Shown: positions 3,921-8,031 of the stretch, piece by piece
Position numbering within the stretch: position 1 is the first letter of the stretch
How the letters are laid out: every line of letters starts with the position of its first letter
DNA from: Marinifilum sp. D714
GTDB taxonomy: Bacteria; Bacteroidota; Bacteroidia; Bacteroidales; Marinifilaceae
NCBI RefSeq assembly: GCF_030851345.1
Contig: NZ_JALPNU010000029.1
Span: 1-41,839 of the forward strand
Length of the DNA stretch: 41,839 nt
Direction: 5' to 3'
Translations under genes and position numbers: made by a program
Notes under the pieces: model-generated
Database searches by the model: none
What the model was told of the DNA's origin: nothing
What the model saw: only the letters and a program-made list of their open reading frames with translations

Positions 3921-3931
3921 ATTTGTTTGTT

Positions 3932-4720
3932 ATGTCCGATCTGTTAAAAGTTAGCTTGGTTCAATCCGAATTGATTTGGGGAGATGTAGAAGCCAATTTG
4001 AATCATTTTTCTGAACTCCTTGGAAAAATTGAGGAGGAAAGTGATTTAATCGTCTTACCAGAGATGTTTACTTCTGGGTTTTTGATGAAGAACAAAGACA
4101 AGGTTTCGCCATTTGCTGAGATGACAATTAGTTGGATGCAGAAATGGGCATCGCAGCTTCAAACTGTAATACTGGGAAGCATTATTGTTGAAGAAAACTC
4201 TGAGTATTACAACAGGTTATATGTTGTAAATGCAGAGGGAGTTATGGCCCATTACGATAAAAGACATTTGTTTCGAATGGGAGAAGAAGAAAAGCATTTT
4301 CGAGCAGGAAATGAGCGAGTGATTTTTACGATTGGAAAATGGAGAATTTGCCCATTAGTTTGCTACGATTTGCGCTTCCCGGTTTGGAGTCGAGGAGTTG
4401 ATGAATATGATTTATTGCTGTATGTTGCCAACTGGCCTCAACCCCGAAGAGAAGTATGGAACACCCTTTTAAAAGCAAGAGCAATTGAAAATCAGAGTTA
4501 TGTGATAGGTGTGAATCGAGTAGGGGAAGATGGTATGAATTTATCATACACAGGAGATTCATCCCTTTTCGATGCCAAAGGAAAGCTTCTTACAAAATGT
4601 GAAGATCATAAAACAATCATTCAAACTTACAGCATAAGTTTGAGCCAATTAAACAATTTTAGGACCAAATTTCCTGTGCATCTTGATGCAGATTCATTTC
4701 AAATAAACAAGTATTACTGA
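3932..4720 (+). CDS. Nitrilase-family amidohydrolase, omega-amidase (YafV/NIT2-like)
   Basis: A 262-residue carbon-nitrogen hydrolase. The Glu-Lys-Cys triad is at Glu44 (VLPEMFTSGF), Lys110 (HYDKRHLF) and Cys144 (PLVCYDLRFPVWSR). The CYDLRFPVWSR signature and the HLF motif are characteristic of YafV-type omega-amidases, which hydrolyse alpha-ketoglutaramate and alpha-ketosuccinamate from transamination of glutamine and asparagine, including the methionine salvage transaminase step. I start at ATG 3932 because the frame extends upstream only to a TTG. The gene lies 11 nt behind the acyltransferase. A 53-bp repeat follows about 40 nt after its stop. Confidence 0.88.
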   Translation: MSDLLKVSLVQSELIWGDVEANLNHFSELLGKIEEESDLIVLPEMFTSGFLMKNKDKVSPFAEMTISWMQKWASQLQTVILGSIIVEENSEYYNRLYVVNAEGVMAHYDKRHLFRMGEEEKHFRAGNERVIFTIGKWRICPLVCYDLRFPVWSRGVDEYDLLLYVANWPQPRREVWNTLLKARAIENQSYVIGVNRVGEDGMNLSYTGDSSLFDAKGKLLTKCEDHKTIIQTYSISLSQLNNFRTKFPVHLDADSFQINKYY

Positions 4721-4893: not shown

Positions 4894-4924
4894 TTGGAAA
4901 ACTAAATATATAGTTCTATATTTA
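4894..4924 (+). promoter_or_regulatory. blaI promoter with embedded operator dyad
   Basis: TTGG (4894-4897) and TATATTTA (4917-4924) are separated by exactly 19 nt and approximate the Bacteroidota TTTG/TAnnTTTG promoter. The spacer is filled by the dyad AACTA-N6-TAGTT (4900-4915). The same dyad recurs at 7214-7229 and 8016-8031. A second inverted repeat overlaps it, with TAAATATA (4903-4910) facing TATATTTA (4917-4924). BlaI-type repressors bind dyads with CTACA/TGTAG-like halves inside promoters, so autorepression by promoter occlusion is a natural reading (inference). Confidence 0.6.
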
Positions 4925-4993
4925 AGTCAGAAGTCAAAAAACAAGATTTATAAACAAAAACAAATTGTCCCACTTTAAATAATACAAATAATA

Positions 4994-5368
4994 ATGAAAG
5001 AATTAACTAGGGCTGAAGAACAGGTGATGCAGATCCTTTGGGAACTTGAAAGTGCCTTTGTAAAGGAAGTAATAGAGCGCATTCCTGAGCCAAAACCAGC
5101 TTACAATACCGTTTCAACAATTGTTCGAATTCTTGAGAAAAAAGGATTTGTTGGGCATGTTGCATTCGGTAAAAGTCATAGATATCACCCATTAATTACC
5201 AAAAAAGAATATACTCGCAAATTCATGAAAGGATTTGTAAGAAATTATTTCTCGAACTCCTACCGTGATATGGTATCCTTCTTTGCAAAGGAAGAGCAGG
5301 TTAGCTTATCGGAATTGGAAGAGGTTAAAAGAATGGTTGAAGAGCAAATAAAAAAGCAAAGCTCTTAA
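4994..5368 (+). CDS. BlaI/MecI/CopY family transcriptional repressor
   Basis: 124 residues, the normal length. The winged helix (about 1-70) begins LTRAEEQVMQILWE and continues with YNTVSTIVRILEKKG, both typical of BlaI/MecI. The C-terminal dimerisation helices span 70-124. In staphylococcal BlaI the activating protease cuts at an Asn-Phe bond in the stretch NFVEKEDLS; the matching stretch here is SFFAKEEQVS (about 95-104), so a Phe-flanked cleavage site is plausible. The gene is 13 nt upstream of the M56 peptidase gene, the usual repressor-sensor pair. In Bacteroidota such pairs are common outside beta-lactamase loci, so a resistance role should not be assumed. Confidence 0.93.
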   Translation: MKELTRAEEQVMQILWELESAFVKEVIERIPEPKPAYNTVSTIVRILEKKGFVGHVAFGKSHRYHPLITKKEYTRKFMKGFVRNYFSNSYRDMVSFFAKEEQVSLSELEEVKRMVEEQIKKQSS

Positions 5369-5381
5369 AAATTATCGGTGA

Positions 5382-7193
5382 ATGGTAACAGGCGTAATTC
5401 TATATTTTTTACAATCAGCAATTTGCATGGCATTCTTTTATGCCTTGTATTGGTTGTTTCTGAAAAGGGATACCTTTTTCAGGATCAACCGTGTGTTCTT
5501 GATGCTGACTTTGGCCGCCTCGTTACTAATTCCATCTCTTAAAATACCTTTTCAGCTTGAATCAAATCCAGTAGCATCAGACTATGCAATGCTTGATGCA
5601 GTTGTACTAACTTCTCAGCAATATTTGAGTGCAAATATGTTGCAGGAAGTTGTGGTTACTGCCGATAATCATATTAATTGGTACCAGTATATTGGATTTA
5701 TATATCTGATCGGATTATTATTACTCACTCTTCGTTTTTTCAAAAACCTGATTCAATTGTTTATTTGGACCAGAACAAATAAAAGAATTCGTGAGAATGG
5801 AGTACAGTTGGTAGTAATGAAGGATGATTATCCGCCATTCTCATTTTTAAATGCAATTTTCGTAAGCAATCAGGATTATAAAAAACCAGGATTTTCTTCC
5901 ATATTGGCTCATGAAAGAGTACATGTTGATCAATTGCATACATTCGATCTTTTGGTATTGGAAGTGCTTACGGTTGTTTTTTGGATTAATCCCTTTGTTT
6001 GGATGTACAAAAGTTCTATCCAGGAAGTACACGAGTATTTAGCTGATGACAAGGTGGTGAATGGTTCGGTTAACCCGAATGAATACAAAATGCATATTGT
6101 CAATCAATTTGCAGGAGGTGATTTATTCCGATTGGCAAATAATTTTGGTCAATCAACATTGAAGAAAAGAATTTCGATGTTGGGTAAAATTAAAACTCCA
6201 AAGATTGCGTTGGTTAAACTTTTACTGTTGCTTCCAATTGTTTTGGTATTATTATCAGCCTTCGCTTTTACGATTGAAGAAAAGGAAAAACTTTCCCAAG
6301 ATTTTTCATTTAATGAATTTATTCCTGATGGATTAAAGCAATTCTATTCTTTTTCGGATAGACAATACTCTACATACGATGATGAATTGCACTTCATTCA
6401 AGGATCAGCTGCAAGTGGTATTTCAGCATTAAAGCATAAGGAAGAAGTAAGCCCGAATCAAATTTATAGAATTGCTGATGAAATGCCTGAATATCCCGGA
6501 GGTATAAATGTATTGAAGAAGTATATCGCCAATGAAATAAGATATCCTAAGGCAGCAAAGAAAAACAAAACGGAAGGAAAAGTATTTATTAGTTTTGTTG
6601 TTGGGAAATCAGGAGAAGTTAAAAATGTATATGTAAATAAAGGTGTTTCCCCTGAATTGGATAAAGAAGCGTTGAGGGTAGTAAAGGGATTGCCTAATTG
6701 GACTCCAGGGAAGCATAAAGGTAATTTGGTAAATGTGGCTTATACATTTCCTATTGATTTTAAATTGAAAGATTTTGTAATTGAACAACCAATAGTGATT
6801 AGAAAACCAGTTTTTGCAAGAATTAAAAATGCTTCGGATTATCATACTGATAATTTAGCGAAATTGGAAAATTACAATCAGGAATATACAGTTGTTGAGA
6901 AAATGCCAGAATTCCCAGGAGGAAATGGAAGCTTAAGAAAGTGGGTTGCTCGAAATTTAAGATATCCAATCTTGGCTGCAGAACAAGGTTACGAAGGGAA
7001 GGTGTATGTGAAATTCAATGTGAATAAAGATGGCAGTGTTTCGGATGCAAAAATTATAAAAGGTGCTAATGTGGAGTTAAATGAAGAGGCTCTTCGTGTT
7101 ATTAATAGTATGCCTTATTGGATTCCGGGAGAGCAACAAGGAATAAAAGTTAAGGTGAGTTATACAATTCCTATTCGTTTTGCTTTGAAATAA
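5382..7193 (+). CDS. M56 (BlaR1-type) metallopeptidase fused to two TonB C-terminal domains
   Basis: 603 residues. N-terminal membrane segments lie at about 5-27, 36-52 and 101-120. The zinc motif HERVH is at 177-181, with the downstream acidic helix SIQEVHEYLAD at 212-222. Another hydrophobic span (LVKLLLLLPIVLVLLSAFAF) follows near 275-297. The periplasmic part then carries two TonB C-terminal-like domains beginning MPEYPGG (368) and MPEFPGG (508), each ending in the usual xPIxFxLK strand. In BlaR1 the periplasmic module is a penicillin-binding sensor; here TonB domains take its place, so the signal may come from an outer-membrane or peptidoglycan partner (inference). The expected target is the BlaI-type repressor 13 nt upstream. 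Confidence 0.9.
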   Translation: MVTGVILYFLQSAICMAFFYALYWLFLKRDTFFRINRVFLMLTLAASLLIPSLKIPFQLESNPVASDYAMLDAVVLTSQQYLSANMLQEVVVTADNHINWYQYIGFIYLIGLLLLTLRFFKNLIQLFIWTRTNKRIRENGVQLVVMKDDYPPFSFLNAIFVSNQDYKKPGFSSILAHERVHVDQLHTFDLLVLEVLTVVFWINPFVWMYKSSIQEVHEYLADDKVVNGSVNPNEYKMHIVNQFAGGDLFRLANNFGQSTLKKRISMLGKIKTPKIALVKLLLLLPIVLVLLSAFAFTIEEKEKLSQDFSFNEFIPDGLKQFYSFSDRQYSTYDDELHFIQGSAASGISALKHKEEVSPNQIYRIADEMPEYPGGINVLKKYIANEIRYPKAAKKNKTEGKVFISFVVGKSGEVKNVYVNKGVSPELDKEALRVVKGLPNWTPGKHKGNLVNVAYTFPIDFKLKDFVIEQPIVIRKPVFARIKNASDYHTDNLAKLENYNQEYTVVEKMPEFPGGNGSLRKWVARNLRYPILAAEQGYEGKVYVKFNVNKDGSVSDAKIIKGANVELNEEALRVINSMPYWIPGEQQGIKVKVSYTIPIRFALK

Positions 7194-7213
7194 TAAAATT
7201 TTTTACGTATATT

Positions 7214-7248
7214 AACTAAGAAATTAGTTCTAAGGACTAATTTCTTAG
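7214..7248 (+). promoter_or_regulatory. Operator dyad within a 13-bp inverted repeat, between the M56 gene and tonB paralogue 1
   Basis: AACTA-N6-TAGTT (7214-7229) is the dyad also seen at 4900 and 8016. Over 20 nt (TATTAACTAAGAAATTAGTT) it is identical to the site at 8016. Its right part joins a larger perfect inverted repeat, CTAAGAAATTAGT (7216-7228) with ACTAATTTCTTAG (7236-7248). There is no T tract, so it is more likely a protein-binding site than a terminator. Confidence 0.55.
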
Positions 7249-7294
7249 GAATAAAACCCAAAACCAATTTATTGTCTAACCAAAATTCAATGTT

Positions 7295-7999
7295 ATGGAA
7301 GTAAAAAAGAATCCCCGTTACGATTTAGAAAAGAAAAGAGGAATGTTCTTACAAATCGGTTTTTTGCTGAGTTTTTTAATTGTTTTAGCCGCTTTTGAAT
7401 ACAAAACACCAGTTGCCGAAACTGAGGAATTGACCATGGATATCCTTGAAGAAACTGATGAAATTATTCCAATTACTGTACAGGATAAACCCAAACCTAA
7501 AGAGCAGCCAAAAGTAAAGTTGATGGAATTGGCAGAACTTTTATTAGCAGATGACGACGAAGAAATTGATGATCTTGAGATCGAAGATGCAAGCATATCA
7601 GAAGATGATGAATTTGATATTGTTGCTGTAAATGAAGATGATGAAGAAGTTGATGAAGATACGCCATTTGTGAAAGTGGAGCAGATGCCAGTTTTTAATC
7701 CCAGAAAGAACAAAACTTACGAGCAAGGACAACGAGATTTGTTCATTACCATGCAAAAAATGGCTCGTTATCCTACAATTGCCCAGGAAAATGGAATACA
7801 AGGAAAAGTGTTTGTAAGATTTGTTGTCACCAAAACTGGTGAAGTTGCTAACATTAAAGTGGTTCGTTCAGTTGATCCATCACTAGATAAAGAAGCCGTT
7901 AGAGTAGTTAGTAATTTGCCTAAATTTAAGCCAGGTATGCAAAGAAATAGACCTGTAAGTGTTTGGTTTAGCGGATATATTTCGTTTGTGCTGCAATAA
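7295..7999 (+). CDS. TonB-domain protein, paralogue 1
   Basis: 234 residues. A short cytoplasmic start (NPRYDLEKKR) is followed by one membrane anchor (about 17-34), a periplasmic linker, and a TonB C-terminal domain from about residue 128 (MPVFNP) to the last strand SVWFSGYISFVLQ. TonB proteins transmit proton-motive energy from ExbBD to outer-membrane receptors. Here the linker has one short Pro/Lys patch (DKPKPKEQPK) and is otherwise strongly acidic (runs of Asp/Glu at 88-120), unlike the usual long Pro-Lys linker. No exbB or exbD is nearby. It is the first of three paralogues with the same N-terminus, length and architecture, behind the BlaI/M56 pair. A structural or sensory role is as likely as energy transduction. 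Confidence 0.85.
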   Translation: MEVKKNPRYDLEKKRGMFLQIGFLLSFLIVLAAFEYKTPVAETEELTMDILEETDEIIPITVQDKPKPKEQPKVKLMELAELLLADDDEEIDDLEIEDASISEDDEFDIVAVNEDDEEVDEDTPFVKVEQMPVFNPRKNKTYEQGQRDLFITMQKMARYPTIAQENGIQGKVFVRFVVTKTGEVANIKVVRSVDPSLDKEAVRVVSNLPKFKPGMQRNRPVSVWFSGYISFVLQ

Positions 8000-8015
8000 T
8001 TTTTTTCTAGGTATT

Positions 8016-8031
8016 AACTAAGAAATTAGTT
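8016..8031 (+). promoter_or_regulatory. Operator dyad before tonB paralogue 2
   Basis: The third copy of AACTA-N6-TAGTT, with the same six central bases (AGAAAT) as the 7214 site. It starts 17 nt after the stop of paralogue 1 and ends 27 nt before the ATG of paralogue 2. I found no equally good copy in the 188-nt gap before paralogue 3. Confidence 0.55.

Follow-up and report, generated by a model that had tools for sequence, protein, structure and literature searches.

The stretch analysed here, referred to as the window, comprises 41,839 nucleotides (nt), positions 1 to 41,839 of contig NZ_JALPNU010000029.1, from the 4.77-Mb genome of Marinifilum sp. D714 (assembly GCF_030851345.1), the closest relatives of which are Marinifilum and Labilibaculum. 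Pfam profile searches of the window proteins, on which the gene identities around the finding are based, revealed a gene for a BlaI/MecI-family repressor (blaI), a gene for a BlaR1-like M56 metalloprotease and three genes for TonB-like proteins, tonB1 to tonB3 (Table 1). By eye, each of the three TonB-like proteins has a hydrophobic stretch near its N-terminus. The dyad AACTA-N6-TAGTT, two five-base half-sites around a six-base spacer, occurs three times around this cluster, and a first-pass annotation of the window had read it as the mark of a candidate BlaI-family regulon. In what follows, the genome under study is G000 and its window cluster C27; other genomes are numbered G0xx and fetched loci Lxxx.

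All three dyads are exact and begin where they had been placed, at 4900, 7214 and 8016. Shuffled windows contained a mean of 0.07 and a maximum of one exact dyad, and no shuffle contained three; with two mismatches allowed, the window held 40 matches versus 34 expected. The second and third sites share 20 nt, TATTAACTAAGAAATTAGTT, as the first-pass annotation had observed, and its placement of the first site between TTGG (4894-4897) and TATATTTA (4917-4924), elements 19 nt apart, could be read directly from the sequence. A degenerate second operator is predicted 21 nt after the second site; it deviates at three of its ten half-site bases and is recognisable in an alignment of ten genomes. Tandem dyads at 20-21 nt are also found upstream of other blaI genes.

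Table 1. Genes and predicted regulatory sites of the blaI cluster in the window.
Feature	Position	Strand	Sequence	Basis and conservation
Carbon-nitrogen hydrolase	3923-4720			Pfam
blaI core promoter, predicted	4894-4924	+	TTGG (-33-like, 4894-4897) and TATATTTA (-7-like, 4917-4924)	operator enclosed
Operator O1 upstream of blaI, predicted	4900-4915		AACTAAATATATAGTT	exact; exact in 10/10 genomes, with six different spacers
blaI, BlaI/MecI-family repressor, 124 amino acids (aa)	4994-5368	+		Pfam Penicillinase_R 1.3e-33
M56 metalloprotease (BlaR1-like) with two TonB C-terminal domains, 603 aa	5382-7193	+		Pfam
Operator O2a upstream of tonB1, predicted	7214-7229		AACTAAGAAATTAGTT	exact; exact in 10/10 genomes
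Degenerate second operator O2b, predicted	7235-7250		GACTAATTTCTTAGGA	ten-genome alignment
tonB1, TonB-like energy transducer, 234 aa	7295-7999	+		Pfam TonB_C 2.8e-21
Operator O3 upstream of tonB2, predicted	8016-8031		AACTAAGAAATTAGTT	exact; exact in 10/10 genomes
tonB2, TonB-like energy transducer, 233 aa	8059-8760	+		Pfam TonB_C 1.6e-16
tonB3, TonB-like, 239 aa	8949-9668	+		Pfam TonB_C 5.5e-19

Conservation of the dyad upstream of orthologues was assessed in a set of ten Marinifilaceae genomes, namely the genome under study and nine relatives with an M56 orthologue at least 64% identical (64-100%). The three cluster sites were exact in all ten, as the proposal of the first-pass annotation had required. 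Three further promoters, unlinked to the cluster, also carry the dyad, which begins 85 nt before exbB in an operon of exbB, a gene for a 149-aa protein and two exbD genes, 49 nt before a gene for a TPR protein with a signal-like N-terminus, and 107 nt before a gene for a LysM lytic transglycosylase (mltD). Across the six promoters and ten genomes 59 of 60 sites were exact, where the sites at blaI, tonB1 and tonB2 were taken as the exact matches of the cluster region, three per genome, and those at exbB, TPR and mltD are the best match within 200 nt; the sole exception was the mltD site of G011, with one base changed. Mean column identity was 99.8% in the half-sites, 79% in the spacer and 72-74% in the 20-nt flanks. 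Near-invariant half-sites around a drifting spacer are the trace expected of a dimeric DNA-binding protein. The conserved sites support the earlier proposal that the repressor controls itself, the M56 gene and at least two TonB-like genes, and the predicted regulon is larger than first proposed, with the addition of the exbB operon, the TPR gene and the LysM lytic transglycosylase gene.

A wider sample gave a similar picture. With 28 of 55 fetched loci scanned, three exact sites were present in 13 of the 14 loci from Marinifilum, Labilibaculum or Marinifilaceae, six of these 13 being repeats of members of the ten-genome set. The fourteenth, L175, belongs to the divergent genome G014 and lacks the first site; in L172 an open reading frame (ORF), as extended by our script, takes in the third site. 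The exbB promoter carried an exact dyad in 10/10 genomes with a close M56 orthologue versus 0/19 family or order members without one, the nearest being G007 with one mismatch; G029 was left out of these 20 comparison genomes as it has only a distant exbB relative. The exbB promoters of G014, G020 and G030 also lacked an exact dyad (0/3). A clear orthologue of the TPR gene was found in the same ten of the 13 genomes searched, and its dyad was exact in 10/10. The mltD site was not found in G014, G020 or G030, a weak negative, since the alignment started within the gene and the reading covered 220 nt ahead of it. The exbB operon itself (L062:1312-3679, G000 C12) contains no tonB gene and has the same gene order in G020 and G030; its 149-aa protein had no Pfam match.

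Beyond these six promoters, we found an exact dyad 43 nt before the gene for a 788-aa GAF-domain protein (C17:27388-27403; L065:4389-4404). This site was exact in six of the ten cluster genomes and had two mismatches in G009, G012, G015 and G023, and G014, G020 and G030 gave no match better than two mismatches; its spacer is apparently more conserved than at the other promoters. The GAF gene is a possible further target outside the core six. A fourth tonB gene (C10; L223, C10:101500-104500) is preceded, 251-252 nt before the start in 9/9 located starts, by [TCG]ACTAA[AG]TTTATAGTT, a string also present in the tenth genome, G023. Its outer base is free and its flanks are fairly conserved, and it may possibly be a weak operator of the same regulon. 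Extra sites in relatives were inspected as well (four in G009, four in G015, one in G001, then five more across G001, G011 and G023); besides the GAF site of G001, these yielded the GAF gene once more (G011) and the promoters of two blaI paralogues, and among the extra sites inspected in these five genomes no other common target emerged. In G014, 23 of 34 exact sites were inspected (21, plus two more), and two tonB genes away from the cluster, with TonB_C confirmed by Pfam, have dyads upstream, which is suggestive only of membership in the regulon. Also in G014 (L147, L149), two dyads precede a gene with a start resembling a SusC-type receptor by eye, and two separate a tonB from a sigma-factor-like gene that is divergent to it. 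In the distant L179 (Bacteroidetes bacterium GWF2_35_48), a TPR gene and blaI lie about 1 kb apart, TPR first, each with two exact dyads upstream (2922-2973; 5306-5376); this TPR protein is 24% identical to that of the genome under study, which in a repetitive family may be general likeness.

The position of the dyad within the promoters was then compared with the Bacteroides promoter consensus, TTTG (-33) and TAnnTTTG (-7), as given in the available part of PMC7366714. At blaI, the TTG and TATATTTA are conserved in 10/10 aligned genomes, in a string that reads TTG, one base, AAAACTAA, four free bases, ATAGTT, one base and TATATTTA. The operator takes up the interval that separates the two elements of this predicted promoter, -33-like and -7-like. 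By reading, the dyad abuts TATATTTA at the TPR gene; at exbB it overlies the -33 region, with TAATTTTG following some 20 nt later. In the alignment, a T run ends 9-10 nt before the dyad at both tonB1 and tonB2.

The window BlaI matches Pfam PF03965 (Penicillinase_R) across 115 of 115 positions, as well as the known structures of Staphylococcus aureus MecI (1okr) and BlaI (1sd4), and is a member of the family by these measures. It shares the family trait of a palindromic site in its own promoter, in a frame of 16 base pairs (bp) at 4900-4915. The classical core TACA/TGTA is not found in this site; the spacer is AT-rich and variable, with no CA..TG, and the outer ACTA..TAGT is kept instead. The genome contains seven full BlaI genes, each adjoining an M56 gene, after an eighth PF03965 match, C8, was dropped as partial (23.8 bits) and ArsR-like by eye. 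The M56 paralogues of L218, L219 and L220 carry different extra parts, either CarboxypepD_reg with TonB_C or a peptidase M23, and the end of the C105 M56 protein resembles a TonB receptor plug by eye. Dyads of similar geometry lie upstream of 7/7 BlaI paralogues, several of them in tandem 20-21 nt apart. Five are of the class ACTA/TAGT, one is mixed and one is ACGA/TCGT: the half-sites are AACTA-N6-TAGTT for C27, TACTA for the two C17 genes, GACTA for C12, AACTA with a mostly seven-base spacer for C15, mixed AACGA/TAGTT for C10 and TACGA-N6-TCGTA for C105.

The link between BlaI genes and dyads extends to many BlaI genes across Bacteroidota. In the fetched loci, 53 of 69 distinct BlaI genes have a recognised dyad upstream, after removal of duplicates, of partial or low-scoring matches and of genes preceded by under 150 nt of sequence. 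The 16 without one include C10 (L008), with its mixed halves. One predicted recognition-helix position is Asn in 47 of the 69 proteins and Thr in 22. A recognised dyad precedes 44 of the Asn-type genes, all with the outer base A on at least one side, and three have none. Among the Thr-type genes, seven have T, one has G with A, one has A (L213, the exception) and 13 have no recognised dyad. The residue at this predicted helix position goes with the outer base of the predicted operator, an association among related proteins and not a set of independent events. Recognition-helix residues may, more generally, form a possible specificity code with the outer base, the core and the spacer length.

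We place a probability of roughly 0.83 on the reading that AACTA-N6-TAGTT is the operator of the window BlaI (4994-5368), which would repress at least six transcription units, with the M56-TonB protein acting as anti-repressor. Comparison of genomes shows which sites are conserved, that they go with blaI genes and which promoters carry them; binding, repression, cleavage of BlaI and sensing are inferred. A BlaI dimer on the dyad would cover the core promoter and block polymerase. The units held down in this way would be blaI with the M56-TonB gene, by autoregulation, as well as tonB1 and tonB2 and, away from the cluster, the exbB operon, the TPR gene and the LysM lytic transglycosylase gene. 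A periplasmic signal, probably received through the two TonB C-terminal domains, would switch on the M56 zinc protease, and cleavage of BlaI would then release the genes for the Ton machinery. Such a circuit would set the amount of Ton energy-transduction machinery through a sensor domain of the same kind as is found in several of its targets. Since TonB, ExbB and ExbD make up several of the predicted targets, what the sensor detects would naturally be the state of the Ton system. The TonB-like proteins may work with ExbB/ExbD on outer-membrane receptors; the feature seen in common with the exbB operon is the conserved dyad.

The M56 protein has features suited to the part proposed for it. Pfam detected Peptidase_M56 (4.6e-10) and TonB_C in two stretches (3.7e-38), and its zinc motif HExxH (residues 177-181: H177, E178, H181) and ExxAD (218-222: E218) are invariant in 11/11 orthologues. 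Its predicted structure, with a mean predicted local distance difference test (pLDDT) score of 52.8, is too poor to judge the membrane part. S. aureus BlaR1 cleaves BlaI between Asn101 and Phe102, according to the available text of PMC9834060, and the residue of the window BlaI aligned to Phe102 (P1') is also Phe. On this alignment and the intact catalytic motifs, the M56 protein would likely cleave BlaI. We also consider, tentatively and with more doubt than belief, that the circuit gauges itself: the M56 TonB domains would sample the same partners as the TonB proteins, either the TonB boxes of outer-membrane receptors or the pull on them, in a homeostatic arrangement that needs no iron signal. 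An excess of receptors over working TonB would engage the sensor domains, the protease would cleave BlaI, and ExbB/ExbD, TonB and the peptidoglycan-opening lytic transglycosylase would then be made together.

Several observations weigh against BlaI control of these promoters. In the whole genome we found eight exact sites versus 36 for the reversed control pattern, and the chance expectation, extrapolated from the window shuffles, is also about eight; in the AT-rich G014, there were 34 exact sites versus 39 for the reversed control. The orthologous blaI of G014 has no exact dyad upstream. There is no exact dyad in the gap before tonB3, either here or in eight of the nine relatives checked, and in G009 that gap carries the third dyad and tonB2 is not present. 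By reading, a -7-like element is not clear at tonB1, tonB2 or mltD. At the P1 position of the cleavage site, S. aureus BlaI has Asn101, and the corresponding residue of the window BlaI is Phe. To these points are added the half-sites of the C10 and C15 BlaI paralogues of this genome, which are similar to those of C27, and the exact 16-mer upstream of a C15-type blaI in G011 (L280:1477-1492) and of a C10-type blaI in G023 (L281:1525-1540). Separately, the G009 locus (L055, around 5824 of the reversed locus) has no tonB2 ORF or obvious remnant between tonB1 and tonB3.

Since the genome-wide count is at chance level, frequency alone is no evidence, and the case is carried by clustering, position and conservation. 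The first-pass annotation had made its proposal depend on the frequency of the dyad in the intergenic DNA of this genome; the raw count is at chance level, but six of the eight sites belong to promoters that keep the dyad in 9 or 10 of the ten genomes, and the seventh, at the GAF gene, is exact in six of the ten. Six genomes that have the cluster contained 8 to 15 exact sites each, versus 2 to 5 in five genomes without a close orthologue, but 34 in the AT-rich G014. The eighth site of the genome under study, C17:435626, lies within a coding frame, and its 16-mer is also among the sites of G001, G009 and G011; it is not counted in the regulon.

The exact 16-mers before paralogous blaI genes in G011 and G023 mean that cross-binding or shared sites are possible. 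Taken further, the dyads could serve chiefly the C10 or C15 paralogue of BlaI as operators, or be shared by several repressors in a merged envelope network, and the AACGA/AACTA half-sites or 7-nt spacer of these two paralogues would fit such an arrangement. We consider it rather unlikely. The paralogues of the same genome have sites of their own, with mostly a 7-nt spacer for C15, TACTA for the C17 pair, GACTA for C12 and mixed halves for C10, and the site at exbB tracks the presence of a close orthologue of the C27 cluster.

BlaI as the protein that binds the dyads is a prediction from sequence, and the dyads also stand at promoters unlinked to blaI, so an unrelated transcription factor that happens to regulate blaI as well might account for them. 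This is very unlikely, as the same class of dyad precedes 53 of the 69 distinct BlaI genes, the base changes follow the BlaI recognition helix, and the frame is that of the CopY operator in the available part of PMC7253601. Less probable still is that the repeats act as RNA hairpins between genes, as a terminator, an attenuator or a stability element. In this genome, 7214-7229 is almost the reverse complement of 7235-7250 and the two segments could form a hairpin, but by our reading of the alignment the pairing is imperfect or broken in G001, G011 and G015 while the half-sites stay; a lone dyad has arms of only five bases, and with invariant half-sites no compensating changes were seen. The hairpin at 7214-7250 was put aside because its pairing is not kept in relatives. 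Chance recurrence of an AT-rich 10-base pattern agrees with a genome-wide count equal to expectation, yet three sites fall inside 3.2 kb and the ten genomes keep 59 of the 60 promoter positions exact, which makes it a negligible prospect, rejected because of the conservation and not the count.

BlaI/M56 pairs are numerous in these genomes, with seven here, and their family names suggest antibiotic resistance. If BlaI control of the dyads is true, these pairs gain an operator and a regulon in which no resistance gene is obvious, together with a sensor domain that matches the targets. Several of the predicted targets build the machine that powers uptake across the outer membrane, which suggests a circuit that controls the uptake of nutrients. 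The suggested code from helix to base would allow BlaI regulons to be predicted in related bacteria.

Parts of this arrangement have precedents. Chu, Peacock and Vogel (2007, Biometals) reportedly described fusions of a MecR1-like part with a TonB C-terminal domain, as well as TonB proteins that carry a tandem pair of C-terminal domains; their account is said to have concerned the proteins only, without an operator, regulon or target genes. The closest studied systems are BlaI/BlaR1 and MecI/MecR1 of S. aureus, which, in the available text of PMC9834060, likewise have a small BlaI-family repressor adjoining an M56 gene, the M56 catalytic motif and palindromic sites in the repressor promoter. 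The sensor differs: in place of the penicillin-binding domain of BlaR1 and MecR1 (SxxK), which Pfam did not find in a protein with M56 and TonB_C matches only, there are two TonB C-terminal domains. Instead of beta-lactamase or PBP2a, the circuit is predicted to control genes of the Ton machinery and the envelope, and its operator is without the central CA..TG.

The related copper repressors CopR/CopY use an identical 16-bp frame, with the operator RNYKACANNTGTMRNY, and the core of classical BlaI-family operators is TACA/TGTA (available part of PMC7253601). AACTA fits RNYKA and TAGTT fits TMRNY; unlike the site described here, however, the CopR/CopY operator requires an inner ACA..TGT, and release is by metal and not by proteolysis, as far as the same part of that source goes. 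In Clostridium thermocellum, BlaI_1845 and BlaI_0696 have motifs determined by DNA affinity purification sequencing (DAP-seq) and confirmed by electrophoretic mobility shift assay (EMSA), with the half-sites GACTAT and GTCTAT; paired dyads, autoregulation (predicted in the window) and a blaR1 in the operon are common to both cases, whereas the C. thermocellum regulons comprise one and three operons, with no TonB link in the available text of PMC8457756. Among the best matches listed from the open-licence literature, we found no report of a BlaI-TonB regulon or operator in Bacteroidota, or of the amount of Ton machinery being set through BlaI in this phylum, and the available parts of PMC12578637, PMC8986121 and PMC5294843 contain nothing on a BlaI-TonB regulon. 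Pairs of the BlaI/BlaR1 type are already known; what is new is the predicted operator, the Ton regulon predicted from it and the variant operators found with the BlaI paralogues.

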